Source of the DNA: a virus
DNA: 36,568 bases
Strand: one strand, 5' to 3'
Virus record (IMG/VR): IMGVR_UViG_3300021178_000028
Coordinates: 1 to 36,568 of that record
Below the pieces are notes generated by a model. The model searched no databases. It had not been told where the DNA came from and was given only the letters and a program-made list of their open reading frames with translations. The position numbers and the translations under genes are program-made. Positions 12,350 to 36,568 of the stretch are shown here, piece by piece; the stretch's first letter is position 1; each line of letters opens with the position of its first letter.

Positions 12350-12357
12350 GTTGCCTC

Positions 12358-12738: not shown

Positions 12739-12753
12739 TTTTCATCCCTTAAT

Positions 12754-12919: not shown

Positions 12920-12944
12920 AAATCAATCCCTTTTGGAGGTCGCC

Positions 12945-13396: not shown

Positions 13397-13769
13397 TTTT
13401 TTTAACCTCTAAATAAGTATCTTGAACCACTTTAACAAGCTCCTCGTTTATTTCCATGAGATTATTCACATTCTCATGCGTTCGTCTTAGCTGTTCGTGG
13501 TCGCTCCATACTTTTGGATAGTTATTTTGATCCACTGCCGTAATTAGTGGATCGTATTTAGCTAAGTGTGAATTAACCGTTCTTATTTCTTCGGTATGAG
13601 CGCGCATCATGTCGCCAAGCTCATCAAAAAACTTATTTTTGTAAGCTGGCAATGATTCACCACGTCCTTGTTTCTTTTCCCAAGCCGCAAATGCTTTGAG
13701 AGAAGCTAAAATTATAGCCGCCCCAGCGGTTCCACTAAGCAAATGAGAAAGTGCTTCTAATAAACTCAT
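13389..13769 (-). CDS. 126-residue membrane/coiled-coil protein
   Basis: The N-terminus has a weak membrane segment (GTAGAAIILASLKAFAAW), followed by a helical region with heptad-like spacing (AHTEEIRTVNSHLAKYD, LRRTHENVNNLMEINEELVKVV). The layout resembles small phage proteins annotated as putative holin-like or tail-chaperone-like, but nothing decides between them. It abuts the phosphatase gene, sharing one base (TAATG-type). Confidence 0.6.
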   Translation of the reverse strand: MSLLEALSHLLSGTAGAAIILASLKAFAAWEKKQGRGESLPAYKNKFFDELGDMMRAHTEEIRTVNSHLAKYDPLITAVDQNNYPKVWSDHEQLRRTHENVNNLMEINEELVKVVQDTYLEVKKNA

Positions 13770-14578: not shown

Positions 14579-14760
14579 TTGACACCCATCTTAGGCTTAT
14601 TCATGTAAGGCTGATACGGCTTGGCATATACTCCAAGTTTTTGAGCATCATCAAACTTCATGCTCTGGGTAGTCCCGCCCTGCATGGGTTGAACGCCAAT
14701 GCTTTTAGGGGGAAATTCGGTTTGACCTGGCTTGCGTGTAAGAGCTTCTATAAGTTTCAT
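14575..14760 (-). CDS. 61-residue hypothetical protein
   Basis: A short Lys/Gln/Pro-rich protein with the segment PKSIGVQPMQGGTTQSM and a C-terminal YQPYMNKPKMGVK. It overlaps the phosphatase start by four bases (ATGA) and follows the 650-residue protein by seven bases, so it is co-translated with both. No domain is recognised. Low complexity suggests a small virion or assembly factor, but that is only inference. Confidence 0.6.
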   Translation of the reverse strand: MKLIEALTRKPGQTEFPPKSIGVQPMQGGTTQSMKFDDAQKLGVYAKPYQPYMNKPKMGVK

Positions 14761-14767
14761 TTCATCC

Positions 14768-16720
14768 TCACGGAGTTGCAGGGGCGGTCATTCCACGCCC
14801 TGCGCCTATGCCAATTCCAGCAAGCCAAGGCGGTAAGCCCATGACTTTTGGATTTATCGTTCTTTGTCCTTGCAAATAGTTATTCATAGCTGCGTCATTA
14901 GCTACAGAGCCGCCTTTTCTAATGGCACTTCCTAAGACGCCGCCTATAGCATTTCCGACAACTGGAATATGCGAAGATAAGCCCTCTACTCCGTTCGCCA
15001 GCCAATTGAGGCCATGTGAAGCGCCTAAAACCGCTGTCTGTGAATTCTGGGGTAATTTATTAGCCCATTCACGTATCGTTCCCCCGTCAGATATCATCTG
15101 TTGAATCTGTGGGTAGGCATCCCCCAATAAAGGCCCTCTAGCATTAGCCGGAATACGGTTGACCTCTTTTTCAAGTGAATTTATGCCTTGGGTAAGCCTG
15201 CCAATATCATCTTTGGCGGGATTATTCAAAGCGGTTTTAACTTTATCCATGATATTTGAAACAGCGACAGATTTTAAATCACCTGTTCCCATACCCGTTT
15301 TTTTCATAAAGTCTTGAACGTTTCCCATGAATTCTTTATCACTGTTCCCTGCCCCTATCATGCTGTCCCAGAATTTATTAGGGTCTTTGGTCAAAGGAAC
15401 AGCTAAAGCGTCCGAAGAATCTTTTAGACCTGAATAAATCGAATTCTGCTTTTTAAGCATATCACCTATAGCCGGGGGTAAAGCGGCCTGTTCGTTTTTG
15501 CTCAAAGCTGCATAGACAGCGTTCTTAACCCCAGAAGAAGGCACCCCGCTTTTCTGCGAAGCCGCATAAAGCTCTTGACCTAGATTTTGGCGAAGGTTTC
15601 TTAGTCCGGTTACATTTCCAATGTTATTTATATCGTCAATATAACCTTGTAGAACATCAGCGACAGGTTGCGAGAATCCTTTTGCGCTCTTACTTGCGGC
15701 TATGTTTCCAGCGTCATCAATATTCCAGCCCGCTTGCCTGACTGCTTGAATAACATCCCGGCGAACTGCTAGAGGATTGATATTAGTGGCTCCCATCTTG
15801 TCCGCTAGGTCTATATTCTTATCTAATACCGACATAGCCCCGCCAGCCGCGTCCTGAGCGTTTCCAAATTTAGTCTGGAAATTAGCCGCTGCGGTAGTTG
15901 GTTCTTGGACAGGGGCGACTTTGGAAAGAGTGTTTTGAAGATTACCCTGCATTGAATCGGCTTGGTTTCTAGCCATTGCCTGAATAGGATTTGAATTCCT
16001 ATTCATAGCTTCGCGTTCAATTTCAGGCGTCAGACCTTTAACACCGCTTTTAATCTGCATCTGGGCAGGGGTAAGTTGCCCGTAAGCGGTATCTGGTAGC
16101 TGTTCTACCGGGATTGAAGGCGCTCCCATCTTTGCACCTGCGAGGCCTCCTGCCATTGTGGAGGCGAGCTGAACGATGGGGTTATCAATGGCCTTGGCAA
16201 CGCCTGGAAATCCTGCGGACTTTGCGCCACTGGATGCAAGGCCAGGTAAAGCTGCGCCAGCGCCCGCGCCGAGACTAGCGCCAGCAAGACCTTTGAGAGC
16301 TGCATCAGATGTTCCTCCTAATAGCCCTGTAGCGGGCAAAGCTGATAATCCTAAGCTGGCTACGTTTAAACCAGTTTGAACCGTAGGGCCTAACCTATTA
16401 CCAGGAACGCCAAAAGGCTTGTCATTGGTCACAAGGCTGTCAATTGCGCCTGCGGGCGTAGCCACGCCAACGAACTTTTCAGCGGCGTTGATAACAGGAT
16501 TATTTAACCTTCCAGACCCGCTAATCTGTGCGGTCTGACTATCTGTGCCTTGAGGTGAAGTATTGGGCATAGTAGGAGGCTGCTTGGCTGGGCCAAATTC
16601 GTTTTGTAATTTGGCAAATTCAAGCATTTCAGAGGTAGACAAACCTTTTTGGGTCTGTTGGCCTCCGAATTCACCTTGTAGGCCTTGAAATTCGGCCTGT
16701 TCTTCTGGAGAAAGAGGCAT
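14768..16720 (-). CDS. Large probable internal virion / DNA-ejection protein
   Basis: A 650-residue protein in the place where podoviruses encode ejection proteins, downstream of the tail genes. It is rich in Gly, Ala, Gln and Asn, starts with two related Glu-Phe-Gln repeats (EEQAEFQGLQGEFG and EMLEFAKLQNEFG), and has Gly/Ala-rich hydrophobic stretches at about residues 110-165 (GLLGG, GASLGAGAGAALPGLA) and near the C-terminus. The middle is helical. Such features suit a protein ejected into the host envelope to form a channel. No enzymatic motif is visible. Confidence 0.6.
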   Translation of the reverse strand: MPLSPEEQAEFQGLQGEFGGQQTQKGLSTSEMLEFAKLQNEFGPAKQPPTMPNTSPQGTDSQTAQISGSGRLNNPVINAAEKFVGVATPAGAIDSLVTNDKPFGVPGNRLGPTVQTGLNVASLGLSALPATGLLGGTSDAALKGLAGASLGAGAGAALPGLASSGAKSAGFPGVAKAIDNPIVQLASTMAGGLAGAKMGAPSIPVEQLPDTAYGQLTPAQMQIKSGVKGLTPEIEREAMNRNSNPIQAMARNQADSMQGNLQNTLSKVAPVQEPTTAAANFQTKFGNAQDAAGGAMSVLDKNIDLADKMGATNINPLAVRRDVIQAVRQAGWNIDDAGNIAASKSAKGFSQPVADVLQGYIDDINNIGNVTGLRNLRQNLGQELYAASQKSGVPSSGVKNAVYAALSKNEQAALPPAIGDMLKKQNSIYSGLKDSSDALAVPLTKDPNKFWDSMIGAGNSDKEFMGNVQDFMKKTGMGTGDLKSVAVSNIMDKVKTALNNPAKDDIGRLTQGINSLEKEVNRIPANARGPLLGDAYPQIQQMISDGGTIREWANKLPQNSQTAVLGASHGLNWLANGVEGLSSHIPVVGNAIGGVLGSAIRKGGSVANDAAMNNYLQGQRTINPKVMGLPPWLAGIGIGAGRGMTAPATP

Positions 16721-22124: not shown

Positions 22125-22838
22125 TTAATACTGTTGGTAAGGGAAGATCACAGGCTGACCGAACATAATTTCGTCGCCTCTGATCGTGTTGAGCAAGTTA
22201 GTCATCTGTTCCTGTTGCATCCAAACCCTGGACATGATCTTAGCTACCTGGGCCTCATGGTATTCATTACGAGGGTCAGCTTGGATTTGGTAGAACTCTG
22301 ATATCGGGCCGTGAACTAGAATGTCATCGAATTCAGGCGGGATAATCGAATAATCACCGTCTGCCGCTAAAGGCGTAACGTGCTGCCAAGCGTCATAGTT
22401 AATCGTGAATATGGCGTTAGGCGTAGGCCATAGGTCATACTGCTTAGCTCCATTTGCCGCAGGAATAGCCTCTACAGCCATTTGAGGGATACCATTGCCC
22501 GTAAGTGTCCAGCCAGAAGGGTAAATCTGTAGGAATTTCTGCCTAGGATAGATAAGCAAAGGCTGGCTGATATTACGGATATTCAGGTTAGCCACGTCCA
22601 TAACGGTGTCAGGCATAGTGATACGAGTAGTTCCGTTTACCGTGGCTACTGTGCCTTCATTCTTGGCCCATTCCCACCTAGCTTGTCCTGCAAAACGCTT
22701 ATACCACTTATTCACTACGTCCTTAATACTCTGGAGCGTAGGGAATGTATTAGCACTAGGCGCGGTCTGGTTAAATAGCCAGGTGCCTATTTCGTTTTGA
22801 ATCTGTAGAAAGGTTCGTTGACCGTTTAGGGCTGCCAT
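22125..22838 (-). CDS. Head-tail adaptor (tail tube A-like) protein
   Basis: This 237-residue protein has the helical N-terminus and beta middle of podovirus adaptors (P22 gp4 / T7 gp11 type): RTFLQIQNEIGTWLF, SIKDVVNKWYKRFAGQARWEW, a sheet with YDLWPTPNAIFTINYDAWQ, then IPPEFDDILVHGPISEFYQ. It would sit between portal and nozzle. The stop abuts the nozzle start. It overlaps the exported LamG-like gene by 13 bases. Confidence 0.75.
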   Translation of the reverse strand: MAALNGQRTFLQIQNEIGTWLFNQTAPSANTFPTLQSIKDVVNKWYKRFAGQARWEWAKNEGTVATVNGTTRITMPDTVMDVANLNIRNISQPLLIYPRQKFLQIYPSGWTLTGNGIPQMAVEAIPAANGAKQYDLWPTPNAIFTINYDAWQHVTPLAADGDYSIIPPEFDDILVHGPISEFYQIQADPRNEYHEAQVAKIMSRVWMQQEQMTNLLNTIRGDEIMFGQPVIFPYQQY

Positions 22839-23608
22839 TTAGAATCTCTGAGATATGCTGAACGGATTGGCGTAGGGCTCATTATAGGCAAAGCACTAGC
22901 ATGCGTTTTATCCTTGGTTTTACTAGGCCCGCCACTTGGAACAGGAGTTAAAGTAGGGGTTGAGGTTGGCGTATTTGTTGGAGTAGGCGTAGGAGTTGTA
23001 TCGTCTACGTAAGCATCGTCATATTTCATATTATCCGCAAATGTTCCAAATCCAATTTGCCCTGAGTTATAAAAACCCTCTGCTGTTGCCGTTAATACTT
23101 GAACACCATCCATAAAAATAAACGATCCAGAGGCATTTTTGTATATGCCAAGAAGAAAATTAGCTGGATTAGCAGGAGTAACATTTGTAGTTGTATCATT
23201 TAGTAATACCGAATAACCCCCACGATAAAAATAAAGATGATTTGTATTAATCCATTGAATTTGATATCCGTCTGTTGGCAATCCAGCCACAATTGTAGTG
23301 CAATAGACGCAAAGATTAGCGCGACCTGCTGAACCGTCAACACGCGCTGTAAAACTAATAGCACCAGAAGGCGTTAAATTATTGTAAAGCGCATGTGCCC
23401 AAGCACTTGCCGTTAACCCTGCCGCCTGCCCACCGTTAAAAGTAACAATGGTTGAACTACCACTACCTCCGAATCCATCACGATAATTAGCCCCAGCAGT
23501 ATAAGTAACTACTTGCCCTAGTGGGTAGGACTCAAAGTTTTCAGAGTATAAAGGCGTTGACCAAGCCTTTATACTAAAGCATAAAAAAAATGCTATTAGA
23601 TATCTCAC
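22826..23608 (-). CDS. Exported LamG-like protein with Thr-Pro repeats
   Basis: Starts at GTG 23608 (GTGA overlap). Residues 1-17 form a Sec signal (RYLIAFFLCFSIKAWS). Residues 20-200 are beta-rich with FESYPLG, WINTNHLYFYRGG and IFMDGVQV, resembling a concanavalin/LamG glycan-binding fold. Residues 206-225 are a Thr-Pro linker (TPTPTNTPTSTPTLTP), then a basic tail. Thr-Pro linkers of this type are typical of bacterial surface proteins. It may be a host-derived gene for a surface or glycan-binding protein, or a virion protein that keeps a signal. Confidence 0.65.
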   Translation of the reverse strand: MRYLIAFFLCFSIKAWSTPLYSENFESYPLGQVVTYTAGANYRDGFGGSGSSTIVTFNGGQAAGLTASAWAHALYNNLTPSGAISFTARVDGSAGRANLCVYCTTIVAGLPTDGYQIQWINTNHLYFYRGGYSVLLNDTTTNVTPANPANFLLGIYKNASGSFIFMDGVQVLTATAEGFYNSGQIGFGTFADNMKYDDAYVDDTTPTPTPTNTPTSTPTLTPVPSGGPSKTKDKTHASALPIMSPTPIRSAYLRDSKWQP

Positions 23609-23841
23609 AAGCCAACCGGAGTTGGAGTAGCAGTGCTAATTGCTTTTCCTGGTGTTACAGTCATAGTCGGAGTCATGGTCAAATAATTTTTCTTTATTTG
23701 CCACGCATTAACGTAAGTGCCGTTAATATTTTTCAAAACATCTGTAGTGACTGTTTGAAAATTAGGGTCTTTAGGAACTGCTGCCGTAAGATAGGCAACT
23801 AATCCAAGAATGCCGAAATAAGCTATGATAGCTATTCGCAT
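23605..23841 (-). CDS. Short exported protein with Thr-Pro tail
   Basis: A 78-residue protein with an N-terminal hydrophobic segment (AIIAYFGILGLVAYLTAAV) that may be a signal or anchor, a short soluble stretch (TVTTDVLKNINGTYVNAWQIKKNY), and a tail with TPTMTVTPG and TATPTP. The Thr-Pro tail resembles the linker in the next gene, which suggests joint function or a split ancestor. Start ATG 23841 follows the previous stop closely with AGG upstream. Confidence 0.6.
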   Translation of the reverse strand: MRIAIIAYFGILGLVAYLTAAVPKDPNFQTVTTDVLKNINGTYVNAWQIKKNYLTMTPTMTVTPGKAISTATPTPVGL

Positions 23842-23842
23842 A

Positions 23843-24604
23843 TCAATACCTATAAGTTGCAGTGTTGGTTACGGTTTCAGCGCTCTGGTTATACCAATGG
23901 ACTACAGAGTCTTGCACCGAAAGAGTGCCTAGTCTGACACTCCAAACCATTTTTTCCCCTGCCGAAATATCCGTTCTTTGAACATTGGTATTAGTTGGGG
24001 CTGTGGAACTATTAGTTATAATCACACTTAGAACTTTTGTTCCGTTATTTGCCACTTCCAATGAAGCCCTAGCGGAAAAAGTTAATCCTGCCATAGAGGT
24101 TCCCTGCACACTAGAAGCGTAAGTTACTGGATTCATGGCAAAACGACTTGTAACGGTAGCAGTCCCAGTCAAAGCTCCGATTCCCAATGGCAAATTATCA
24201 GTATTGGCGTCAATATCATCTAAATTACCGCCTGATTCCTGAGCAATAATCCCTGCTGCCGCTGGGGAAACCGGCATTGGATTACTATTGCTAACCACTG
24301 CGCCTCCAACAAGCGTATCGGCTCCAACAGTGATGCCTTTAGCAGCTACACTCCCAGCGACAGCTTGTAATGTAACCCCTTGAGTGGTTCCACCCGAAGC
24401 GCCCACTGTATTTATCGCCCCGTTAGAATTTCCGGTGACTTGCCGCCAAGCGTTCGTAGCGGTATCTAGATACATCATCTGCTGCGCGTCATGATGAGCG
24501 CTTTCAGATGTTACCGCCGTTTGTGAAAGCCCTAGGTTAATATCACCCGCAAAGCAGGTGTTACCTAGCAGCAACGAGATTAAGCCGAGACATACGCGCT
24601 TCAT
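23843..24604 (-). CDS. Exported beta-rich protein
   Basis: Read from ATG 24604 with AGGAG five bases upstream (253 residues). A clear Sec signal (KRVCLGLISLLLGNTCFAGD) is followed by a Gly/Ala/Thr-rich beta region (QGVTLQAVAGSVAAKGITVGADTLVGGAVV) and a C-terminal domain ending ETVTNTATYRY. Proteins of this composition with turns like DDIDANTDN occur among phage structural proteins of unknown role, but the signal peptide is unusual. It overlaps the glycosyltransferase gene by 44 bases. Its role is unknown. Confidence 0.6.
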   Translation of the reverse strand: MKRVCLGLISLLLGNTCFAGDINLGLSQTAVTSESAHHDAQQMMYLDTATNAWRQVTGNSNGAINTVGASGGTTQGVTLQAVAGSVAAKGITVGADTLVGGAVVSNSNPMPVSPAAAGIIAQESGGNLDDIDANTDNLPLGIGALTGTATVTSRFAMNPVTYASSVQGTSMAGLTFSARASLEVANNGTKVLSVIITNSSTAPTNTNVQRTDISAGEKMVWSVRLGTLSVQDSVVHWYNQSAETVTNTATYRY

Positions 24605-25877
24605 GTTCACTCCTATCCACTATTTTGAGTATTTCAGCACCTAATTTGGCGCTGATCTTCGCTTGGTCATACCTTGCCTTTACGTCAAGGTGCGCCCGGT
24701 TTGCCATAACCCGCCGCAAGTCGGCGTCCTTGATTAACCTTGTGATGCACGAATACCATTCGTCAGGATTCCCGGCTAGAAAGCCGTTGTGTCCATGCTG
24801 AACGTCATCGTTGTAGGTAATAATATCTGCGTAAACTCCGGGTATCTTCAACGCCGAGAACTCTAGGTATTTGATGTTGGATTTGCCTTCGTTGAACGCA
24901 GACTTCTTTAGCGGTGCCAAGCCTATATCAATGCTGGTTTCCGCAAGCCATTTAGGATAGTCCTGAATCTCACAAGGCTGGATAATCTCAACCTGGGGAT
25001 GATCTAGGAACCCCTTTTTCTCAAAGAAATCGGGGAACTGAGGTTTCTTGTCAAACTCATCCAAGGACTGACCTTGTTTTGACTTACCTCGCCACCAATT
25101 GTTAAAGCACAGACGGACGTTAGGATTCTCACGTAAGATCAAATCCAAGGTATCGACGATTTCAAACCAATCCTGGTAATGCGTGTTAGAGCCGAATAGA
25201 CCGATACGGATAATCCCGTCGTCTATGACGTTCTTGGCAGGCCATAGCTCGAAGTCTACGCCATTAGGGATAACTACTGTATTCCCGTTGAACTTCTGAT
25301 ATAGGCGTTTGAGCTTAGGAGTCGATACCGTGACCAAAGCCGCCATTTTCATTTGTTCAATCGCGTTCTTCCAAGGCGCTCTACGGCACTGCCAGAGATA
25401 CCACTTGTTATCCTTGGGGTTCTGTAAAATCTTCCCGCCAACGTTATTGGCGTTCTTTTTCCACTCCGCGCTTTCTTCCATGCCTTCGGGTATCTCAAGC
25501 CAAACGTCCGGCTTTTCTTCACGCCATGCTTTGAGATGTTCAGCCGGGTTACTTGCATCAATATTCAAAATATCATCGTCACAGTCGATAATGAGAGGCT
25601 TGAGCTGTGCCTGGATTTCAAGCCTAACTCCGTCCTCAAACGAGCCTCGAAAGTTACTCATAATGACATCGTGGTTATCCACAATTTCAGCATGTGAACC
25701 GATTCCAGGCACGTTGCAAGGCCCGGTCAAGCCTTCCCACTGAATACGTTCTAAGCGGTCTGGAAGCCGTTCCACGTGGAACCCTTCGATACGTCCAAGA
25801 TACTTCAAAGGCTGCCAGATACGGTAATGGCTTACCCCGTTGTTCCCAGCGTGGTATCCAAACAGTTTCACGCCCAT
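24561..25877 (-). CDS. Glycosyltransferase, GT4-like (GT-B fold)
   Basis: A 438-residue protein with N-terminal GYHAGNNGVSHYRIWQPL, an acidic IIDCDDD, the mid-protein hinge VVIPNGVDFELWPA, then IRIGLFGSNTHYQDW and the donor-binding segment FNEGKSNIKYLEFSALKIPGV typical of GT4 enzymes. The EX7E-like part is present in altered form (EGKSNIKYLE). It would transfer a sugar from a nucleotide donor. In a phage virion operon the acceptor could be a virion protein, cell-wall glycan or DNA. A second, membrane-type glycosyltransferase candidate is at 32890-34140. Confidence 0.85.
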   Translation of the reverse strand: MGVKLFGYHAGNNGVSHYRIWQPLKYLGRIEGFHVERLPDRLERIQWEGLTGPCNVPGIGSHAEIVDNHDVIMSNFRGSFEDGVRLEIQAQLKPLIIDCDDDILNIDASNPAEHLKAWREEKPDVWLEIPEGMEESAEWKKNANNVGGKILQNPKDNKWYLWQCRRAPWKNAIEQMKMAALVTVSTPKLKRLYQKFNGNTVVIPNGVDFELWPAKNVIDDGIIRIGLFGSNTHYQDWFEIVDTLDLILRENPNVRLCFNNWWRGKSKQGQSLDEFDKKPQFPDFFEKKGFLDHPQVEIIQPCEIQDYPKWLAETSIDIGLAPLKKSAFNEGKSNIKYLEFSALKIPGVYADIITYNDDVQHGHNGFLAGNPDEWYSCITRLIKDADLRRVMANRAHLDVKARYDQAKISAKLGAEILKIVDRSEHEARMSRLNLVAAR

Positions 25878-26287
25878 GAAGGCCTCACAACGGCTTGGCC
25901 TAGGTATCTGCCTGCAGCATCACTTACTCCGCTTGGAGCTTTGGTAGGTAGCTTGATAGGAGCACCTTTATACTTGTAGGCCCAGTCTGAGCCAAACGCC
26001 CTGGAGAACTGAGCTTTAGAGAACCACCCTTGGCCTTGAAGTAATCTTAGAATGTGACGCCAACCACGGTGATATTGATTCTTTTCGTCAAAGAAGTCAT
26101 ATTCCGGTATTTGTCCCAAGAACCAAGAGGGAGAGGGAAGCGGGCTATCCATAACAAGCCCATTCTCATGAGCTTCTGGATGTCCTGGCATCATCTTATA
26201 GAGCCCAGAGCTAGGGCCGGGGCCAGGAACAAACCTGACCCTTTTATCCAAGCTCTGTAGCTCTGCAATGAATATTTTTAAACGCAT
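25868..26287 (-). CDS. 139-residue hypothetical protein next to glycosyltransferase
   Basis: Read from ATG 26287 with GGAGG seven bases upstream; a TTG two codons earlier is less likely. The protein has PGPGPSSGLYKMMPGHPEAHENGLVMDSPLPSPSW, a basic helix (RGWRHILRLLQGQGWFSKAQFSRAFG) and a C-terminal Gly/Val region. It overlaps the glycosyltransferase start by ten bases. No family is recognised. The tight link suggests joint function with the transferase or a capsid-associated role. Confidence 0.55.
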   Translation of the reverse strand: MRLKIFIAELQSLDKRVRFVPGPGPSSGLYKMMPGHPEAHENGLVMDSPLPSPSWFLGQIPEYDFFDEKNQYHRGWRHILRLLQGQGWFSKAQFSRAFGSDWAYKYKGAPIKLPTKAPSGVSDAAGRYLGQAVVRPSWA

Positions 26288-26305
26288 CCCCAACCCTCCA
26301 GATTC

Positions 26306-26533
26306 TTAGGCCTGAACGTCCGACTCGCTGTAAGTCTTCTTACTGAACGAGTTGGTATTAGTCTCGATACGGTGCGGAACCTGCCAACCCGCTGCCGGAT
26401 TCAGAGGAGTCCTGCCGTTGTCACCTGGAACCCGGTTGCCCTGAGGAATATCACCGAAGATATTTCCTGAGTCGCCGGGGTTGTTATTCTTGGAGATACC
26501 AGAGTATCCCCCGTTGCCTGAAGTGCCAGCCAT
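26306..26533 (-). CDS. 75-residue Gly/Asn-rich protein after the capsid gene
   Basis: A small protein with Gly/Asn/Ser-rich N-terminal half (TSGNGGYSGISKNNNPGDSG) and a polar C-terminus. AGGAGG precedes the ATG at 26533. It sits directly downstream of the major capsid gene, where phages often encode capsid decoration or linker proteins. The assignment to a decoration role is by position only. Confidence 0.55.
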   Translation of the reverse strand: MAGTSGNGGYSGISKNNNPGDSGNIFGDIPQGNRVPGDNGRTPLNPAAGWQVPHRIETNTNSFSKKTYSESDVQA

Positions 26534-26550
26534 TTCATACCTCCTATTGG

Positions 26551-27528
26551 TTAGCCGTTATAAGAAACAGCCATAGTTGCAGCAAAGACACGTGCGTTCG
26601 TTTCACCCATATTCAAGGCAATCACACCAAAGCCGCGCAGTTTATACGCAACCGTGGCAAGCTGCCCGTATGGATCAGACGACCCGCCCGACCCTGGCTT
26701 GTTGACGATGATCTGGATAGGGCTGTCTTCCAGCGACACGCAGCCGAAAGCGTTCTCACCCAAGGCAAAGGCCTGGTAGGCGGTAACACCTGCGGTAACA
26801 GTCGTTGTGACGATGTTCTGGCTTTCCAGCAAGCGGAACTGCCAGAGATTGCCAACTTCACCGTTCCAAACTTTGCTCTGCTGCCCAAGCTGCGCCTGAG
26901 AAGCAAAACCAAGCACCGTAGTGTCGGCAAGCAAGTCATAGCGCTGGAAGGGATGCAGGACAAGGGCGAACTTCATACCGTCACGGAACGGCCTAACCTT
27001 GTTGCTGGCGAACTTGACCGCCATACGGCGAAGCACGTTCGGGCTAAAGGTATCCGTAGTCGCAATGCTGGCGGTTGACGCGTTACCATTCGCACCAATC
27101 CAGGAAGTGGCATTAGCGGCAAGCGTAGTGCGGCAGAGAAGGTCAACCGTATCAGAGGCGGCATCAGACAGCACTTTCACGCTGTCTTCAATCACGCTCT
27201 GGCGGTTCGTCAACTCTGCAAATTCGGTGATCTTGATGAACTGCCCATACTGCAACATAGTGATAGTCGCGGTATTCGCAGTCAACGAGGTCAAGCCACC
27301 TGTCACAGTATCTTCGTTCAAGGCGGCAGTCGTTCCTACGATGTTGCCGAAACGATGAACCATGAACGTATTACCGCTATTCGAAGGCACGTTAAAGCGC
27401 TGCGCCAATGGATAGAAGACAAGGTTCTGGAACAAACGATCCTGGGCAATATCGTTATACTTGATGCGCTGGAGCTGCTCGATCTTCTGAGCTGAGCCAG
27501 TAGTTGTATTAAAATCGTAAGAAGCCAT
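26551..27528 (-). CDS. Major capsid protein, N4-gp56 family
   Basis: This 325-residue protein matches the N4-gp56-type capsid pattern: a basic N-terminal start, DRLFQNLVFYPLAQRFNVP, GNTFMVHRFGNIVGTTAALNEDTVTG, ATITMLQYGQFIKITEFAELTN, KVRPFRDGMKFALVLHPFQRYDLL, and a C-terminal RGFGVIALNMGETNARVF. It would form the HK97-fold shell. It follows the scaffold-like gene, and portal lies upstream in the same operon. AAGGA precedes the ATG. Confidence 0.88.
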   Translation of the reverse strand: MASYDFNTTTGSAQKIEQLQRIKYNDIAQDRLFQNLVFYPLAQRFNVPSNSGNTFMVHRFGNIVGTTAALNEDTVTGGLTSLTANTATITMLQYGQFIKITEFAELTNRQSVIEDSVKVLSDAASDTVDLLCRTTLAANATSWIGANGNASTASIATTDTFSPNVLRRMAVKFASNKVRPFRDGMKFALVLHPFQRYDLLADTTVLGFASQAQLGQQSKVWNGEVGNLWQFRLLESQNIVTTTVTAGVTAYQAFALGENAFGCVSLEDSPIQIIVNKPGSGGSSDPYGQLATVAYKLRGFGVIALNMGETNARVFAATMAVSYNG

Positions 27529-27546
27529 TACATTTCCTTGTGAGCG

Positions 27547-28362
27547 TTACCCTTTGAGCCCACCAAGCAATTGATCGACCACTTTCATGCGTTCTGCGCG
27601 ATCTACAGGCAAGTTGTCCATAGACCATTGAGGCGAAGTTTTCTGTGAATTTCCAAGGGCCGTTGTGGCGCTTTTAACCTTAGCCGCCTGACCCTGCTGA
27701 ACCTGGGCCGCTTTAGCTTCCTGAGAATTCGCCACCTGTTTCTTGACTTCCTCACACATCCACTGAATGCCTGTGCGAGTAGTGCGAATCTCCTGGAGCA
27801 ATCCCGCTGATTCAGGATCGCCCATATCAGCCTTCTGCTTAATCGCTAAGTAGAAGTTACCAAGTGGCTCGTTGTATTTATCGAAGTCAGCACCTAAATA
27901 ATTCTTGGCGCTGTTCTCAATACGCGAGTTTTCCTGGTAAGCCTTATACTCCTGCGCCGTGGATTCCCAGCTTTCAAACTTCTCTTTATACAGATCGTCT
28001 ACTAAGTGCTTAATCAATTCCCGTGTGGCTTTTTGAGTGGGTTCGTCCAGTTGTTCCCAGCTCTTAGGGGGTTGATTCTGAGGTTGACTGGTCTGTTTCC
28101 TGAAGCTATCGAAATCGCTCCGCATCTTGCGAAGCCCTCCCAACTCGCTCAAAAGCGGGTTGAGCATAGCCTGTAGTTTTTGTTCATCGACATAGGAAGG
28201 TGCAGGGGCGACGACTTGCTCTTTAGGAGCAGGCGCTTCCATCTGTTTCGTAGGAGAATCGCTTAGAAGCTGATCGGCTGATACGCTCTCTGGGCCGTTA
28301 CCAACTTCTTGTGCGCCTTCTACCCTTGGCTCTGTCGGTTCTGCTAACATCTGCTCTGGCAT
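27547..28362 (-). CDS. Scaffold-like protein
   Basis: Read from ATG 28362 with GGAGGG four bases upstream (271 residues; a TTG four codons earlier is rejected). The N-terminus is Pro/Glu-rich and disordered. The middle is helical with EPTQKATRELIKHLVDDLYKEKF, and the C-terminus has QVQQGQAAKVKSATTALG followed by PVDRAERMKVVDQLLGGLKG. Position just before the major capsid gene, high charge and predicted helices fit a phage scaffolding protein that directs shell assembly. Confidence 0.7.
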   Translation of the reverse strand: MPEQMLAEPTEPRVEGAQEVGNGPESVSADQLLSDSPTKQMEAPAPKEQVVAPAPSYVDEQKLQAMLNPLLSELGGLRKMRSDFDSFRKQTSQPQNQPPKSWEQLDEPTQKATRELIKHLVDDLYKEKFESWESTAQEYKAYQENSRIENSAKNYLGADFDKYNEPLGNFYLAIKQKADMGDPESAGLLQEIRTTRTGIQWMCEEVKKQVANSQEAKAAQVQQGQAAKVKSATTALGNSQKTSPQWSMDNLPVDRAERMKVVDQLLGGLKG

Positions 28363-28382
28363 GTTTCCCTCCAATCGGCCTA

Positions 28383-28664
28383 TTAAGGCTCGGTGGCTTC
28401 CTGCTCAAGATCGTTTTCGTCGGCTTGAGCTTTGGCTGCGGCGAAAGCATCGTCAATGATTTGGCGAGGCCAACGCTGCAACGCAGTTAACGCCCGAATC
28501 CTATATTTCAAGTTTCGGGTTTCTGTATCATCGTCCGAAGCTATGAGCTTCAACTGTAAAGACTCGATATCGGACGAAATGAGCTTTTCTAGAATCATCC
28601 AGCCTTCGCTCCTAACTGTTGATAGAAGCATTGAAGCGTCATCTTTGGATAGGCGCGTATCCAT
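28383..28664 (-). CDS. 93-residue helical hypothetical protein
   Basis: Starts at ATG 28664 overlapping the portal stop region and ends just before the scaffold-like gene. It is helical and acidic with RSEGWMILEKLISSDIESL, a basic RNLKYRIRALTALQRWP and an Ala/Glu-rich tail. Small helical proteins between portal and scaffold are common in podoviruses. No family is recognised. Confidence 0.65.
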   Translation of the reverse strand: MDTRLSKDDASMLLSTVRSEGWMILEKLISSDIESLQLKLIASDDDTETRNLKYRIRALTALQRWPRQIIDDAFAAAKAQADENDLEQEATEP

Positions 28665-30601
28665 TAGTGAGCCCCCGCCATAGCTTTTTGAGGAATAGAC
28701 ATTTGCTGAGGCATTCCAGGAGGATTAGGGCCTCCTGGGCCAGCCATGCCAGGAGGGCCTTGCATTCCAGGCATTCCAGGAGGTGGCCCTTGCATCGTAG
28801 GAGGCATAGGCAATTGAATAAACATATCCGCGCTGTTCTTAGCGCCACGTAAAGGCAACGATATTTCCTCAATGTGTTTAGGAATGTTGTAAATTTTTCC
28901 TGGGCCGAATGCTCCCATGCTGTTAGCTTGTGTCATTTCTCCAATGAAGCTAGTATCATCCGCAATTTGCTGCTTTTTGTAGTTTTCGGTAGCTGCGGAA
29001 ACAGCGATAAATCTAAACTGGCCTTGAAGCATTTGCTTAGTAATCGGGATTGCTACGCCTTCCTCTGCGGTGTCATGGACTACCATTTGTCCATCGACCC
29101 CAAATTGTCTATAGAAAAGCCAACACTCCTTTGAAAGTGTCTCGAATAGGCCTTGGTTTAGCGTGTCTGACATATCTGCAAAACGTGATCCTGCGGCTGC
29201 TTGTAGGCCTTGAAACTCGGTTGCGGTGTCTGCGCCTTCGATTCCTTGGAACTGCTCGTTTGCTCCTGATGCCTCTCTAGCTGTGCTAACCAGGAATTCT
29301 AGATATTGCTGCACTACTTTTAGGGCGTTTGCGTCTAGGACGAATTCCTTTACTCCATTGGCGTTCTGCACAGGAACTAGCCCGTTGAGCTTCATAAACG
29401 TGGTTCTGCCAGTTAGGCCGCTTGATTCATCGTAGAAGATAAGCGGATTGGAGAAACGTTCAACCATTGCTTCCTGTTTTGAAGCGTAGGTATTGATTTG
29501 CTCTAAGAGGTTCTCAATAGGGCCTAGTAAGCCTGTGCCCATGACTGATTGTGGATCTATGATGCAAGGCGTTGAGATGTAAGGGTGCCTCTGAGGGTCT
29601 AAGGCGTTTTCCTCGAAGAATACTAGATAGTCGTTTTCACAGATGAAGAAGTGGGACTTAATTACCTGAGTCTGCCCTTCGACTTCGTAAGTGATATCAG
29701 CGAACCACTCATCTATGCGGTATTCCTTTTCATCTCCGTAGGTGAATCCCCAATTAGTATCACCGTCAGCCGTTTTAAGGCGCTGCGTCCAATCCTCTCG
29801 TTGACTCCCACCCAGGCCAGCCGGGACTACTCGCTTGAGATAGTCAACGTTCCAAATGCGCCCGTCCCGTTCCCACTTCTTGAGGTCGTTGTAGGACATC
29901 TTAGAACGTTCACGTATCCATGAGCTATCTTGAATCCTAGTCGTTACGTGAGCATCCCAAGCTATATTAACAGGGTTCTTTACTTCAAACGTCCAATACT
30001 CTTTCATATCGGTTACTGGCTGTTCACCTGTTTGGATAGTTTCGCCTGTAACTGCATGAGGCTCATAGATAGGCTGTGTAACCGTGATGGGCTCTCGTTT
30101 CCATACACTACGCACGATTACAAAGGTATCTGTCAAAGCACTCTTAATAGCTGCCTTGCCTTTTTCAACCTGGGGAAATATTTCTTTTACTTTTTGATTG
30201 ATAAAATCTTCAAGCGTTTCGGATTGTGAGTTATCAGACGTAGGCACTTCTGAAATCACTTCGACAAACTTAGGCCGCATAAGCAAATTAGCTGTGAGCT
30301 TGCAATTCACCGCTTCTAGGATTGCGAAGCCAATAGGCAAGGGAACCGACTTACTCCCTTTTTGCTGGCCTACCATGTTGTTCTTCGCTATCCGGTGATA
30401 GCGTTCAATCACTTTCAGCTTAGGCGTGAACCAAGTCTCAAACGCGCTGTTACGGGCTTTGCAGAATTTCAGGATTGCTTGGGTGTCTAAGCCTGGGGGA
30501 AGCTGGGCATTCGCTTTATTAGAGATGCCGGGGCTATCGCTAGACGGGTTGCTTGCGTCAGTCGGTTTAGGCGGCTCGTAGTTGTTTACTAATGGTTCCA
30601 T
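28664..30601 (-). CDS. Portal protein
   Basis: Read from ATG 30601, 645 residues. The in-frame ATG at 30625 lies inside the terminator hairpin and is rejected. The sequence has portal-like features: NSAFETWFTPKLKVIERYHRIAKNN, a beta wing, then TPCIIDPQSVMGTGLLGPIENLLEQINTYASKQEAMV and TAREASGANEQFQG, a conserved helical stem pattern. The C-terminal tail is Met/Pro/Gly-rich (about residues 600-640). It forms the ring through which DNA enters. It is separated from terminase by a strand-specific terminator. Confidence 0.85.
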   Translation of the reverse strand: MEPLVNNYEPPKPTDASNPSSDSPGISNKANAQLPPGLDTQAILKFCKARNSAFETWFTPKLKVIERYHRIAKNNMVGQQKGSKSVPLPIGFAILEAVNCKLTANLLMRPKFVEVISEVPTSDNSQSETLEDFINQKVKEIFPQVEKGKAAIKSALTDTFVIVRSVWKREPITVTQPIYEPHAVTGETIQTGEQPVTDMKEYWTFEVKNPVNIAWDAHVTTRIQDSSWIRERSKMSYNDLKKWERDGRIWNVDYLKRVVPAGLGGSQREDWTQRLKTADGDTNWGFTYGDEKEYRIDEWFADITYEVEGQTQVIKSHFFICENDYLVFFEENALDPQRHPYISTPCIIDPQSVMGTGLLGPIENLLEQINTYASKQEAMVERFSNPLIFYDESSGLTGRTTFMKLNGLVPVQNANGVKEFVLDANALKVVQQYLEFLVSTAREASGANEQFQGIEGADTATEFQGLQAAAGSRFADMSDTLNQGLFETLSKECWLFYRQFGVDGQMVVHDTAEEGVAIPITKQMLQGQFRFIAVSAATENYKKQQIADDTSFIGEMTQANSMGAFGPGKIYNIPKHIEEISLPLRGAKNSADMFIQLPMPPTMQGPPPGMPGMQGPPGMAGPGGPNPPGMPQQMSIPQKAMAGAH

Positions 30602-30610
30602 TTGCCTAAT

Positions 30611-30643
30611 AAAAAAAGGCGGCATCCAGTTAAGGACACCGCC
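30611..30643 (-). terminator. Strand-specific intrinsic terminator between terminase and portal units
   Basis: Read on the minus strand, GGCGGTGTCC and GGATGCCGCC form a ten-pair stem with two G-U wobbles and a six-base loop, followed by seven U residues. On the plus strand the two wobbles become A-C mismatches, so it is built for leftward transcripts. It follows the 52-residue gene and precedes the portal ATG by ten bases. Confidence 0.8.
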
Positions 30644-30665
30644 TCTGAAATGTTCAGTCAGCGAT

Positions 30666-30824
30666 CTAAAACTTAAATTTTTCCGTCAGGGCCGCGCTTG
30701 CGAGTTCGCCGTTATGAACGGTCAATGTCAGCTCGGCATACTTCTTAGCAAGCGCGGCCCGGTATAGCTCGATAAGTCGTATCTCATCACTCGATAATTT
30801 AGTCAAATCTATATCGGGTGTCAA
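30666..30824 (-). CDS. 52-residue small helical protein (TTG start)
   Basis: A frame begins at TTG 30824 with AGGA seven bases upstream, just after the TerL stop, and ends at TAG 30666. The peptide is a regular amphipathic helix (LSSDEIRLIELYRAALAKKYAELTLTV) ending in a basic Lys-Phe-Lys-Phe. Good codon pattern and position between TerL and the terminator support it. The function is unknown. Confidence 0.55.
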   Translation of the reverse strand: MTPDIDLTKLSSDEIRLIELYRAALAKKYAELTLTVHNGELASAALTEKFKF

Positions 30825-30833
30825 GAGATAATC

Positions 30834-32345
30834 CTAAGTTTCATCATCCGAATAGGCAGCTATTTCAGCCTGGGTAAAGGCGTGTTTAGCTACTCTGGCG
30901 TCAGCTTCCCGGCCTACTTGCTCATCTGTCATAGGTGGTTTAATCCATTGAGCTTTCTTTTTTCCAATATACATACAGATATAGCGAAAACTGTCACAGG
31001 CATGGTCGTTCCATTTTTTAGGCATTTCCGTTTGATTCTTTTCGGAACCTTCTTTTATGGGTTCCCACTGGTATAACTGTAGCTCATTGACTAGGTTAGG
31101 ACAACCGCCTTCGACTATAAATACCTTCGGGCTTCCTAGCTGGCCCTTCCTAGCATGCCAAGACGGGAAAGCCCTTGTAGGGTCTGGGCGTAAGTATTCC
31201 TGGCACATGATAATACCAGCATGGACGTTTTTCTCGGCGTCTAGGCCATATATCCCTTGCTCAATGTAGTTATCCCAGATGCTTTTTCCATCCCCGCCAT
31301 AGGTGCCTTTGACTGAGTAATCCATGACCACTAAAAACTTACCGTTATCAGACATTGGGAAAAAGTCATGCTCTGATAATTGCTTAAAAGCCTTGGCGTG
31401 GTCTGAAACTATTGTATCGCCTCTATAATGTTCTTTATAGAAAACCAAGTTTCCCATTTCATCGACTGCGGCAATTTCAACAGCCGTAGGGTTTACTCTG
31501 CCGTGATCCCATCCAATTATTCTAGGCCAGTGGCTAGGAATTTCAAAGTAATCTACGCTATGAATGCCAGGAAATTCAAAGTCTTTATAAATCTGCCCGC
31601 CAAAGTGATCCCATGACCCGTCAATGTAACGGCTATACATTTCGTCTGTGTATGTCCGGCGTATCTGGTCTAACCAGCCTTCGGCGTGATACCTGATATT
31701 TTCTTTAGTGGGAATATCGTAGGAGCTATTGTTATTGCCTTTGTTTTCCCTGAATTCTTTCTTTACCCAATTAGGGGCCGGGTTGCCTTCACAAATTATC
31801 TGATTGAATGGAAGTGGGACATAGCCCATATCTCGTTGAAGCGCTTCGGAGTATTTATCTTTAAAGGCTTCGATTGAATCGGGTTGCCATTGGCGAATAC
31901 GTCCTAGTAACTCTAGGAATATCTCATAGCTTACTTCCTCGGCTTGGCTAATCCCTGCGAAGGCTATATTAGGCCCGCGAACCTTTTTAACATCGTCATA
32001 GGTGACAAACCAAAGCTCTGAGCCGTTATTGTATTTTAGGGTAAGCTCTGAGGCATTCCAGCTTTTAGTCACTAATCCGGGTTTATCGTATGTCCCGCCG
32101 TTTCTTGGGGCTACGATCTTTTCCAGGAAATCCGGGATAATGCTTCGCTTCATAGCCGGGTAAGTCTTGCGGCCTATGATCGCTTTGCTTCCTGCAAATA
32201 TCTCAAGGTAGGTGTGTATCTTAGCAGCCATGACAAATGACTTGCCAGCGTTATACCCTCCAAAGGCCCCTATGCTTCTTGACCTGTCATACCAGATAGC
32301 TTCTTGAATAGGCTTTCCGGTGAAGTCAAGAATAGGCTTAATCAC
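30834..32345 (-). CDS. terL: Terminase large subunit
   Basis: A 503-residue two-domain packaging motor. The ATPase domain has GAFGGYNAGKS (residues 26-36, Walker A), SKAIIGRKTYPAMKRS, and Walker B IAFAGISQAEEV (127-138). The nuclease domain has PRIIGWDHGRVNPTAVEIAAV (Asp280) and FLVVMDYSVKGTYGGDG (Asp342), the acidic residues that bind metal. It cuts and packages DNA into the procapsid through the portal. It starts at GTG 32345, overlapping the previous stop by four bases. It follows TerS in the same operon. Confidence 0.92.
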   Translation of the reverse strand: MIKPILDFTGKPIQEAIWYDRSRSIGAFGGYNAGKSFVMAAKIHTYLEIFAGSKAIIGRKTYPAMKRSIIPDFLEKIVAPRNGGTYDKPGLVTKSWNASELTLKYNNGSELWFVTYDDVKKVRGPNIAFAGISQAEEVSYEIFLELLGRIRQWQPDSIEAFKDKYSEALQRDMGYVPLPFNQIICEGNPAPNWVKKEFRENKGNNNSSYDIPTKENIRYHAEGWLDQIRRTYTDEMYSRYIDGSWDHFGGQIYKDFEFPGIHSVDYFEIPSHWPRIIGWDHGRVNPTAVEIAAVDEMGNLVFYKEHYRGDTIVSDHAKAFKQLSEHDFFPMSDNGKFLVVMDYSVKGTYGGDGKSIWDNYIEQGIYGLDAEKNVHAGIIMCQEYLRPDPTRAFPSWHARKGQLGSPKVFIVEGGCPNLVNELQLYQWEPIKEGSEKNQTEMPKKWNDHACDSFRYICMYIGKKKAQWIKPPMTDEQVGREADARVAKHAFTQAEIAAYSDDET

Positions 32346-32893
32346 CTACTTACCTTTAATCTCCATCCGTCCGACCTATGAGCGCCTTCAATCTGTGCTA
32401 GGACTGCCCAGGGCATCAAAGCGTTATCGACAGGGGCTAGACGCCATTTGAGTTCAGCTAATAGGCCGTTGGGCTCATGGAGCATGGGAACGGGAAAATT
32501 CTCTGGCAGGGTTATCTCGCCTTTGTGTGGAGCTTCGAGCAAGCCTTTAAGCAATTCCTTAGCTTCCTCTCGCTTAGACTTTTGATCCACCTTTGGAAGC
32601 TCTACAGGCTTGTTTAAATCCGGCTCGGCAAATGGGTCATAGTCTTTAGGTAGTCCGGCTTGTTCTGGTGAGTTAAATAATTCAAACTGAGGTTCAGGTT
32701 TAATTTCTATAGTCGGTTTCTCGTTTCGTATTTGAGGCATATTGTCAATCTCGCGACCCATGATAGCCTCCACTAAAGGTTCTAGGACTACAGCTATTTC
32801 CTCATCAGTCGAGCGCTTCTTACGCGCCACTTTTACTAAAGCGTTTAGTTTAGCATGGAATGACTTTGAATCTAATAGGGCCTGGACATTCAT
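32342..32893 (-). CDS. 183-residue hypothetical protein upstream of TerL
   Basis: The N-terminal 60 residues are helical and basic (SFHAKLNALVKVARKKRSTDEEI), the middle is Pro/Glu-rich and probably disordered, and the C-terminus has KWRLAPVDNALMPWAVLAQIEGAHR. It overlaps both flanking genes by four bases. A terminase accessory role is possible from position. No family is recognised. Confidence 0.65.
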   Translation of the reverse strand: MNVQALLDSKSFHAKLNALVKVARKKRSTDEEIAVVLEPLVEAIMGREIDNMPQIRNEKPTIEIKPEPQFELFNSPEQAGLPKDYDPFAEPDLNKPVELPKVDQKSKREEAKELLKGLLEAPHKGEITLPENFPVPMLHEPNGLLAELKWRLAPVDNALMPWAVLAQIEGAHRSDGWRLKVSR

Positions 32894-34140
32894 ACTTTTT
32901 CCATGAGTGTGTATAGGCCATAGTTACTTATCTCTGCCACTTTGTAGCCTGTATATTCCATCTTCTTAAATCCTACCGCACAATGCACAATGAATTTAGG
33001 AAGGTCAGCATCCGGGAAGCCTTGAAGCTCTGGTATCTCTATCCTGACAGCTTTTCGCATGGTGGTGAAGTAAATCTGGTTCTCCATTCCGTTTACCCAA
33101 ATTCTATCCTCTGGCGTAGTGTTTTCAATAATAACTTTCTCAATTCGCTTGGCGTCAGCTAGAAGCATAGCGTAGTCAATCTGTCCCATCCCGAAAGTGA
33201 CCGTGTAGATAAGACCTGGTTTCCACCATACTAGGCCGTCCCTCCATACCCACACTCCCGCGAATCCAAGCCACATAAGAGGCGTGGGTTGACAGGCCAA
33301 GGCTATAGGTAAGGCGAGAAGTATAAAATGGTGTGGCGTTATCTGTTTCGACCACAGCATGATTAAAACAACAACTAAAGCCACTACTGCCCATCTGCTA
33401 CTCCAATCCATGCAAGCGACTACTGGCGAAATAAGCACGATACAAGGTATGAGAAGCCTTGCCATGCTCATTGTGTTTAATTTGAATGTCCGATTCTTGC
33501 CAAATGTCTTAGGAATATCCCATATCCAAGTTTTAGCAAGCTCAAGCCTTTTGGTCAAGGCCAGGTATGCCATGATAAAGAATGACGGAGCCAATATAAG
33601 CTCCACAGTCTGGAAAGTGGGCACTAGGTTGAGCCCCAACGCCCATGCCACAGGAACAATCAGTAGAACGTTCTTTTGGTTGACCCAGGGAATCAACCCC
33701 AAAACAACAGGGAGGACTAAATTGTATGGATAAGGACTTATACTGCTTACCGCACTTAGCGCAAGTAATGTCAAAGTAAGCCATTCCGTGTTCGCCATGT
33801 GAACCCATATCGTGGGGCTGCAAAGCAGTAACGACAGCACTAGGCCATGTGTGACGCCCATTGTGATCGTGACCATGTAAACACTTAGTGATAGCATCAA
33901 TGCAGGCAAAAGGCGTAACTGTCTGGTCAATGTCAACTTCAAGACGGAGGAGTAATCTAGCCATACCTTATAGCTCCAGTGAATGAGAGGGGGTTTAATA
34001 TCAGCGTGTCCGTCCTGCAAGTAGTCTGTTTTGAATACAGCCGGATAAGCATAGGGCACAAAATCCCGGTCTAGCGGCGTGTCTTTGAATCTCCACCAAA
34101 AAACTAGAGGAAGTGAAGCTGAAATAATAGCTAGTATCAT
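32890..34140 (-). CDS. Polytopic membrane protein, GT-C glycosyltransferase-like
   Basis: A 416-residue protein with about 9-11 membrane helices and a C-terminal soluble domain of about 100 residues. After the first helix it has PLDRDFVPYAYPAVF (acidic Asp24/Asp26) and HADIKPPLIHWSYKVW (residues 45-60), which match the first-loop acidic motif and the PPL motif of ArnT/PMT-type lipid-linked sugar transferases. It would act in the host inner membrane with a polyprenyl-sugar donor. It lies between TerS and TerL, an unusual place. The distant match is by pattern; an undefined membrane protein is the alternative. Confidence 0.65.
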   Translation of the reverse strand: MILAIISASLPLVFWWRFKDTPLDRDFVPYAYPAVFKTDYLQDGHADIKPPLIHWSYKVWLDYSSVLKLTLTRQLRLLPALMLSLSVYMVTITMGVTHGLVLSLLLCSPTIWVHMANTEWLTLTLLALSAVSSISPYPYNLVLPVVLGLIPWVNQKNVLLIVPVAWALGLNLVPTFQTVELILAPSFFIMAYLALTKRLELAKTWIWDIPKTFGKNRTFKLNTMSMARLLIPCIVLISPVVACMDWSSRWAVVALVVVLIMLWSKQITPHHFILLALPIALACQPTPLMWLGFAGVWVWRDGLVWWKPGLIYTVTFGMGQIDYAMLLADAKRIEKVIIENTTPEDRIWVNGMENQIYFTTMRKAVRIEIPELQGFPDADLPKFIVHCAVGFKKMEYTGYKVAEISNYGLYTLMEKV

Positions 34141-34361
34141 TCTATGACCAGTTGTATGTCTTGCCCCGGTTCAGCATAATCTTCGGCTTCTTGCCATGTA
34201 TCCGTTGTATTATCTATTTCGTATGTGCCCCAGACTTGCCAACACACCTTAGCTCCGACACATCCAGCTAAAAATGCTACTAACTTAACTCTAAAAGAAA
34301 CCTTTGGCTTTTTTAGTTTCCCATTATAGTGCGACGGAGAATACACTGAACCCGTTGTCAT
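34137..34361 (-). CDS. 74-residue single-pass membrane protein
   Basis: It has a basic N-terminus (YNGKLKKPKVSFRVK), one moderate membrane helix (LVAFLAGCVGAKVCWQVW) and an acidic C-terminus (WQEAEDYAEPGQDIQL). The stop overlaps the GT-C-like gene by four bases, which suggests they act together. The family is unrecognised. The arrangement of a small single-pass protein next to a membrane transferase is a recurring pattern in O-antigen modification loci, but the analogy is loose. Confidence 0.55.
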   Translation of the reverse strand: MTTGSVYSPSHYNGKLKKPKVSFRVKLVAFLAGCVGAKVCWQVWGTYEIDNTTDTWQEAEDYAEPGQDIQLVIE

Positions 34362-34813
34362 TACTCCCCCTCAAGCAATTTACGAAACCTGTCATCATCC
34401 TTATCTATCTGAAACATAGGCTGAACCGTTAACGAAGTCTGAGCGTTTGCCTGATTGTTATTTTGTATCTGTATTACGTTAGCTTGCGGGCTTAGTCCTA
34501 GTCGATCTGCCGTTGATTTAAAAGCCTCTGAGGATGCCCTTAGTTTAGATGCTGCGTCTACATCTTCGTCATCATCTAATTCATCTAAACCTTCGTCCAT
34601 TTTGTTAAGTGACTTAATCATCACTTTAGCCATTTTGTTTTTCGCTTTATTGCTTATCCTCTGCACTCTGATTTCTGAAAAACGGTGGCTTAAATGCGTG
34701 TAGGATATCCCTAGGCTTTTAGCATATTCCTTTTCGGTAATTTCACCTTTAGGACGAAAAACCATAACCCAATCATCAAAGGCCTTTTCCCAATCTAGTT
34801 TAGCGAGAGCCAT
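34361..34813 (-). CDS. terS: Terminase small subunit
   Basis: A 150-residue protein with an N-terminal helix-turn-helix (EKEYAKSLGISYTHLSHRFSEIR), a long helical middle, and EAFKSTADRLGLSPQANVIQI followed by an Asn/Gln-rich segment, the common end of phage TerS proteins. TerS binds the packaging site and regulates TerL. TerL is about 2 kb downstream with three genes between, which is unusual, since the two are normally adjacent. Confidence 0.75.
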   Translation of the reverse strand: MALAKLDWEKAFDDWVMVFRPKGEITEKEYAKSLGISYTHLSHRFSEIRVQRISNKAKNKMAKVMIKSLNKMDEGLDELDDDEDVDAASKLRASSEAFKSTADRLGLSPQANVIQIQNNNQANAQTSLTVQPMFQIDKDDDRFRKLLEGE

Positions 34814-36163: not shown

Positions 36164-36568
36164 CTATTTGCACTCCCCGATAATCTCGCGTTTTAAAGCT
36201 CCGAATTTTTCTTCATCCCCAATCACTTCGCCATGTAAGGCGACAACCCAAAGGCGCTTGCCTTTCCATTTAGGCGGGATTAAGGTAGCGTGCAAGGCTC
36301 GACTTCCACATAATTCAAGCGGGCCTTTAATCTCTTGAATATCTCCCGGCTTCACCGCTTCTCCTGTTCCTCCATTGCAAGGCTTTCCATCGGCATCTGA
36401 CCACCATAAAGCAATCTGAACGTTCTCTTTGTAGATTTGACTAAGGCGTTCTTTCTGTGCTTTAGGCCAAAAGGCGGCGAATCCAGCGACACTCGCAAGC
36501 CAGTATTCTCCTGTAACTTCGCCGTAGCCGGAGCCGTAGCCGTAGCCGTAGCCGGAGCCGTAGCCGTA
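36164..36568 (-). CDS. YG-repeat protein, C-terminal part (continues at left end of window)
   Basis: An open frame enters from the right edge. It begins with Tyr-Gly and Ser-Gly repeats encoded by hexanucleotide units (about residues 1-17 of the visible part), followed by a folded domain: EYWLASVAGFAAFWPKAQKERL, WWSDADGKPCNGG, KGPLELCGSRALHATLIPPKWKGKRLWVVALHGEVIGDEEKFG. With the 17 N-terminal residues at 1-51 it forms a protein of about 150 residues. Similar repeat-headed small proteins occur in phages, but the function is not known to me. Confidence 0.75.
   Translation of the reverse strand, partial: YGYGSGYGYGYGSGYGEVTGEYWLASVAGFAAFWPKAQKERLSQIYKENVQIALWWSDADGKPCNGGTGEAVKPGDIQEIKGPLELCGSRALHATLIPPKWKGKRLWVVALHGEVIGDEEKFGALKREIIGECK
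36521..36568. repeat. GCCGTA/GCCGGA hexanucleotide repeat at the window ends
   Basis: Tandem GCCGTA and GCCGGA units run from about 36521 to the right edge, and about two more (1-15) start the window. They encode Tyr-Gly and Ser-Gly. The repeat probably stopped or closed the assembly here, so its true copy number is uncertain. Confidence 0.85.

Follow-up and report, generated by a model that had tools for sequence, protein, structure and literature searches.

The late operon of the IMG/VR virus record IMGVR_UViG_3300021178_000028, an uncultured SU10-portal-type phage of bacteria that was analysed here over its full 36,568 bases (the window), holds two glycosyltransferases of different fold, each of which occupies a fixed position. 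One is a membrane protein of the GT-C type (416 amino acids, record positions 32890-34140) that is encoded in the terminase block, and the other is a soluble GT4-like enzyme with a GT-B fold (438 amino acids, 24561-25877) that is encoded downstream of the major capsid protein (MCP). Both open reading frames (ORFs) and a 74-amino-acid single-pass ORF beside the GT-C gene lie where an earlier note on this DNA had placed them, all on the minus strand. That note had regarded the presence of the two enzymes among packaging genes as unusual, which can be upheld for the GT-C protein but not for the GT4-like enzyme, as the latter recurs downstream of the MCP in 16 loci. The unusual part is the stand-alone GT-C protein, which is invisible to hidden Markov models (HMMs), resides in a terminase block and is kept over deep divergence. 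As the genes of both enzymes hold their positions even in distant relatives, the enzymes probably have a lasting job, for example in host-surface disguise or particle coating.

The assignment of ORF 32890-34140 to the GT-C glycosyltransferase class is well supported by a predicted structure and by profile comparison, because the fold matches are one-sided and the alignment to GT39 proteins is in register. No family is assigned to this protein by Pfam, NCBIfam or PHROG models; PF13231 (PMT_2) remained without a match in the record even up to E 10, with the positive controls matching, and the curated GT39/ArnT cut-off was not reached. The AlphaFold2 model, which was built from three sequences, has a mean predicted local distance difference test score (pLDDT) of 56 and a predicted template modelling score (pTM) of 0.61. 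In a VIA-align comparison of this model, all 47 top Protein Data Bank (PDB) entries were GT-C proteins with Z-scores of 16.3-9.2, and the next row, an unrelated protein, followed at Z 4.8. The best matches were ALG12 (Z 16.3), Pmt4 as second (15.4) and ArnT (14.8 over 366 residues), and OST/STT3, AftB, PglB, Emb, PIG-U and others were further GT-C entries among the 47. Foldseek also returned GT-C proteins or GT-C complexes in all of its top ten positions, but with E > 0.04. The earlier note had proposed a GT-C fold to be compared with ArnT and PMT; similarity to GT-C proteins was indeed found, with both of these among the top matches.

On the sequence level, an hhalign comparison of the GT-C profile with a GT39 profile, consisting of nine aligned bacterial GT39/ArnT-type proteins, gave a score of 39.9 (P 2.9e-4, probability 41%). 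In the controls, 200 column shuffles, block-wise or local, all stayed at or below 30.8, and reversed profiles reached 17 and 13. The match emerged only with the nine-member profile, and the alignment to the single E. coli ArnT was unconvincing (probability 1%, P 0.05). A search of the GT-C profile against the sequences of solved structures gave no relevant match, and a BFVD search gave none at E <= 0.001 (best 6.5e-3). In the hhalign register, D26 falls on the catalytic-loop Asp of the GT39 "DE" motif and Y30 on its Tyr, K49-P-P-L-x-x-W55 falls with equal spacing on the GT39 KPPLxYW (K61-W67), and E119 falls on the Asp of the second loop. Each of these residues is invariant in four phages. They belong to two motifs: the D24-R25-D26 ... 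K49-P-P-L-I-H-W55 segment of extracytoplasmic loop 1 (33976-34071, minus strand), which is likewise invariant in the four phages and in register with the GT39 "DE.RYAE...KPPLxYW", and T118-E119 of the second outer loop (33784-33789, minus strand), which is invariant in the same number of phages and is the counterpart of the invariant GT39 Asp (D134 in L067). D24 and D26 together with E119 provide the acidic residues in the first outer loop and the second acidic residue that are looked for in a GT-C enzyme. Judged from these alignments, the protein has likely catalytic residues in D26, K49 and E119.

Full-length relatives of the GT-C protein with 45-48% identity are encoded in the same slot of three other IMG/VR contigs (L002, L003 and L005). 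The order TerS, GT-C, a protein of about 185 amino acids, TerL, portal, MCP and GT4 is thus found in four phages, with pairwise GT-C identities of 40-48%. The slot contains GT-C in 4/4 phages in which it is sequenced; the contigs L004 and L011 start only at TerL or within it. In L003, the terminase large subunit (TerL) has diverged to 31-35% identity from the other members while GT-C stays at 40-46%, which argues that GT-C is retained for its own sake. Relatives of the GT4-like protein with 40-53% identity occur in five IMG/VR contigs, so that GT4 is present in 6/6 clade members. The existence of these relatives, for GT-C in the same slot, argues that neither gene is a chance ORF. Beyond the clade, ten further loci carry GT4 about 0.5-6 kb downstream of the MCP on the same strand, and three of these share their spacing and may be one lineage. 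Altogether, GT4 is found downstream of a related MCP in 16/16 loci with a detectable related MCP; as the ten further loci were retrieved via GT4, they are uninformative about MCP relatives without it, and a related MCP is also found in Bacillus phages (Page, for example) that gave no match to GT4. A tblastn search with GT-C, carried up to E 1, hit no phage record, scans of genome contigs with the GT-C and portal alignments revealed no cellular or prophage relative, and TerL as a lone query found no viral relative.

The ORF 24561-25877 matches the glycosyltransferase PHROG 7162 (E 4.5e-27) and stays below the cut-off of the Pfam glycosyltransferase families (Glyco_trans_1_4, 21.4 bits vs 27). 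Its AlphaFold2 model has a pLDDT of 58; both models were drawn from three to four sequences. VIA-align matched it to the GT-B enzymes BshA, HepE, PimA and WaaG at Z 17.4-13.8 and to GT-B enzymes generally at Z 17.4-13.6, as expected for the two-Rossmann GT-B fold. The description in the earlier note of a soluble GT4-like enzyme after the capsid genes therefore agrees with the PHROG match, the fold and the position downstream of the MCP. Only half of the EX7E motif is present: the second Glu, E339, is invariant, whereas the residue eight positions earlier is G/A/A/S/S, and the first Glu is hence not conserved. Sequence and model together identify the protein as a GT4-like enzyme of GT-B fold, which is probably active, with reservation because of the lost first Glu.

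How the two enzymes are used can be approached from the location of their active sites. GT-C enzymes require a polyprenyl-phosphate sugar and act outside the cytoplasm, as is established for the class (PMC11127046). The phage protein would be embedded in the inner membrane such that its catalytic loop (D26, K49, E119) faces outward, and would transfer sugar from a polyprenyl-phosphate-sugar of the host to an extracytoplasmic acceptor. Virion assembly occurs in the cytoplasm. GT-C is therefore a poor candidate for capsid glycosylation, its active site facing away from this compartment, and since virions would be hard to reach, its natural acceptor is either an exported protein or a glycan of the surface. 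Most likely this would be a cell-surface glycan that the phage uses as receptor, and the late timing would prevent losses of progeny to the dying cell, to cell debris or through superinfection. There is precedent in the gtrABC system of P22, where a phage GT-C enzyme blocks phage binding through O-antigen modification (PMC11436027). The GT4-like enzyme, in turn, would work in the cytoplasm with a nucleotide sugar donor and glycosylate a virion protein, that of the capsid or another; as a cytoplasmic and MCP-linked enzyme it is the better candidate for this. The capsid link, together with the glycans that capsid and tail-tube subunits of mycobacteriophages carry, as far as these are described in a work cited in PMC12619734, suggests such virion glycosylation by analogy.

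We therefore lean, tentatively and somewhat short of calling it probable, towards two separate late activities with host-made donors, GT-C acting on an extracytoplasmic acceptor and GT4 on a capsid or virion protein. The donors of GT-C would come from the host, since no match to a GtrB-type GT2 (PF00535) or a GtrA flippase (PF04138) was obtained in the record at E <= 1. Likewise, for the role of feeding a lipid-linked sugar pathway, which the earlier note had also considered, the record holds no donor synthase or flippase of its own. Several points weigh against our interpretation. The classic seroconversion set is incomplete without GtrB-like GT2 and GtrA, although the record itself may be incomplete, and the late-operon placement is unlike that of lysogenic-conversion gtr operons. 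GT4 activity is not certain, as EX7E lacks a conserved first Glu, and both structure models are of low confidence (pLDDT 56 and 58). Finally, the substrates of both enzymes are deduced rather than observed.

As alternative to two separate jobs, both enzymes could serve one pathway, in which GT4 extends a lipid-linked glycan precursor by a sugar on the cytoplasmic side and GT-C, after flipping by the host, finishes or branches the glycan outside. Both genes are present in 4/4 phages with both slots sequenced, and the GT4 fold resembles that of GT4 enzymes directed at lipids or lipopolysaccharide (PglA, WaaG and PimA, for example). However, a distance of about 7 kb separates the two genes, which belong to different sub-blocks, and about ten more distant MCP-related loci carry GT4 without a detectable GT-C, so that GT4 has a use of its own; an examination of these more distant GT4-bearing phages for GT-C-like ORFs with multiple transmembrane segments found none, but only long tape-measure-like ORFs. 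We consider a common pathway unlikely. It has also to be asked whether the enzymes are superinfection-immunity genes of a temperate phage, as in gtr operons. One clade member is probably temperate, since L003 encodes a tyrosine integrase near the late module (L003 1212-2219, Pfam E 1e-28), but no integrase is among the scanned proteins of the record, gtrAB partners are lacking there, and the glycosyltransferase genes are tied to those for terminase and capsid, which as a rule are silent in lysogens. Late expression would favour progeny protection over lysogenic immunity, and we regard lysogenic conversion as very improbable here. Even less credit can be given to the idea that the GT-C-like protein is an inactive relative with a scaffold or lysis-related membrane function. 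It would fit with the failure of all HMM families to recognise the protein and with non-catalytic GT-C folds such as PIG-U among the structure matches, but D26, K49 and E119 are invariant in four distant phages and align with the GT39 residues.

A further proposal is that GT-C acts in the manner of PMT as a periplasmic protein O-glycosyltransferase on phage proteins that are encoded between GT4 and the adaptor. In this interval, three consecutive exported-looking proteins of 255, 78 and 260 amino acids (22826-24610, minus strand) have signal-peptide-like starts, and two of them have Thr/Pro-rich tails such as TTPTPTPTNTPTSTPTLTP. Comparable runs of signal-peptide proteins, several with Thr/Pro-rich tails (TPTPTPT...), occur in L010 (11160-12770), L011 (7183-8298) and L004 (15630-16723); one exported protein of L010 has a lectin-type Laminin_G_3 domain, and one protein among all these runs has a Gly_rich_2 domain. 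Moreover, Pmt4 is the second-best fold match. On the other hand, the close Z-scores of PMT, ALG12, OST and ArnT mean that the fold picks no acceptor, the tails may merely mirror secreted proteins of the host, and GT-C is also present in L009, where such proteins are absent, and in L008, where only a 46-amino-acid ORF is found. We judge PMT-like action on these proteins to be distinctly unlikely. The more specific notion that the phage makes its own periplasmic O-glycosylation pair, with the exported Thr/Pro-tailed proteins as acceptors, is speculative and receives very little weight from us, because their co-occurrence with GT-C is imperfect; if true, the infected host would carry surface proteins that the phage both encodes and glycosylates.

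The late genes of the record all lie on the minus strand. In the order of transcription they begin with a TerS-like helix-turn-helix protein (150 amino acids, 34361-34813; PHROG 867 DNA-binding, E 0.003), for which tblastn found relatives in L002, L003 and L005. The 74-amino-acid single-pass membrane protein (34137-34361), GT-C, a 183-amino-acid protein (32342-32893) and TerL (30834-32345; PHROG 2, E 4.6e-31) follow. The gene ends around GT-C overlap or abut by a few bases, the 74-amino-acid gene overlapping the ends of both TerS and GT-C, and because of this tight joining the five genes from TerS to TerL can be taken as a single translationally coupled block. The earlier note was right in placing GT-C between TerS and TerL, but the gene does not touch TerL, as the 183-amino-acid gene intervenes; the latter has a divergent positional orthologue in every relative that spans the slot (L002, L003, L005). 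The single-pass protein is not clearly conserved: the corresponding gap in L005 contains an unrelated-looking 40-amino-acid ORF with one transmembrane segment, and L002 has no gap. Downstream of TerL, the SU10-type portal (28664-30625; Pfam SU10_portal, E 3.5e-9), a 93-amino-acid protein, a scaffold-like protein, the MCP (26551-27528; PHROG 1357, E 3.2e-41), a 75-amino-acid protein and a 141-amino-acid protein (25868-26293) lead to GT4, and the 141-amino-acid gene is kept directly upstream of GT4 in 6/6 clade phages. The series ends with the three exported-looking proteins, followed by the SU10 adaptor (22125-22838). Upstream of the late operon, a Gly/Tyr-rich repeat coding sequence (YGYGSGYG...) is found both in the record (36400-36568) and in L002 (525-806). 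The late region also encodes a histidine phosphatase superfamily protein (13769-14578; Pfam His_Phos_1, E 5.8e-42), which is an unusual cargo. Elsewhere, helicase and N6/N4 DNA methyltransferase genes lie side by side on the plus strand (4559-6801), with several HNH endonuclease ORFs close by.

Phage GT-C enzymes are mainly known from lysogenic-conversion operons that provide the donor themselves, and a stand-alone GT-C that is coupled to the terminase points to the use of host lipid-linked sugars late in infection. With the gtrABC systems of P22 and SfX, the phage described here would have in common a phage-encoded GT-C that uses a lipid-linked sugar outside the inner membrane; it differs in the absence of GtrA and GtrB from the record and in the position of GT-C between TerS and TerL, outside a conversion operon. 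The likeness to ArnT/GT39-GT83-type enzymes (C. metallidurans ArnT, PDB 5f15/5ezm) comprises the GT-C fold (Z 14.8 over 366 residues) and three features that are in register with bacterial GT39 proteins, namely the loop-1 Asp, the KPPLxxW and the acidic residue of the second loop. However, the phage protein has 416 amino acids as opposed to about 540-580, lacks HMM-level membership and has I-K in place of the "E-K" pair of ArnT, and no arn-type donor genes were found in the record. The GT4-like enzyme has the GT-B fold in common with BshA, HepE, PimA and WaaG as well as the PHROG 7162 match, but it is without the first EX7E Glu and below the Pfam cut-offs. With its capsid linkage it offers a candidate, open to testing, for virion glycosylation in phages other than actinobacteriophages. 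Glycosyltransferases near capsid or terminase genes are also seen in the MW202801 cassette, in Streptomyces phage KimJongPhill (gene 6) and among the virion glycosyltransferases of mycobacteriophages, and those of MW202801 and KimJongPhill are related in sequence to the GT4-like protein. In MW202801.1, positions 9857-14888 after the MCP are annotated as Fe-S oxidoreductase, glycosyltransferase, PhyH, methyltransferase, NodB-like protein and the related glycosyltransferase, which is possibly a virion or surface glycan cassette. In contrast to the record, these two phages have other sugar genes beside the glycosyltransferase (NodB, PhyH and methyltransferase in the former, UDP-glucose dehydrogenase in the latter), and no GT-C is seen at their terminase.

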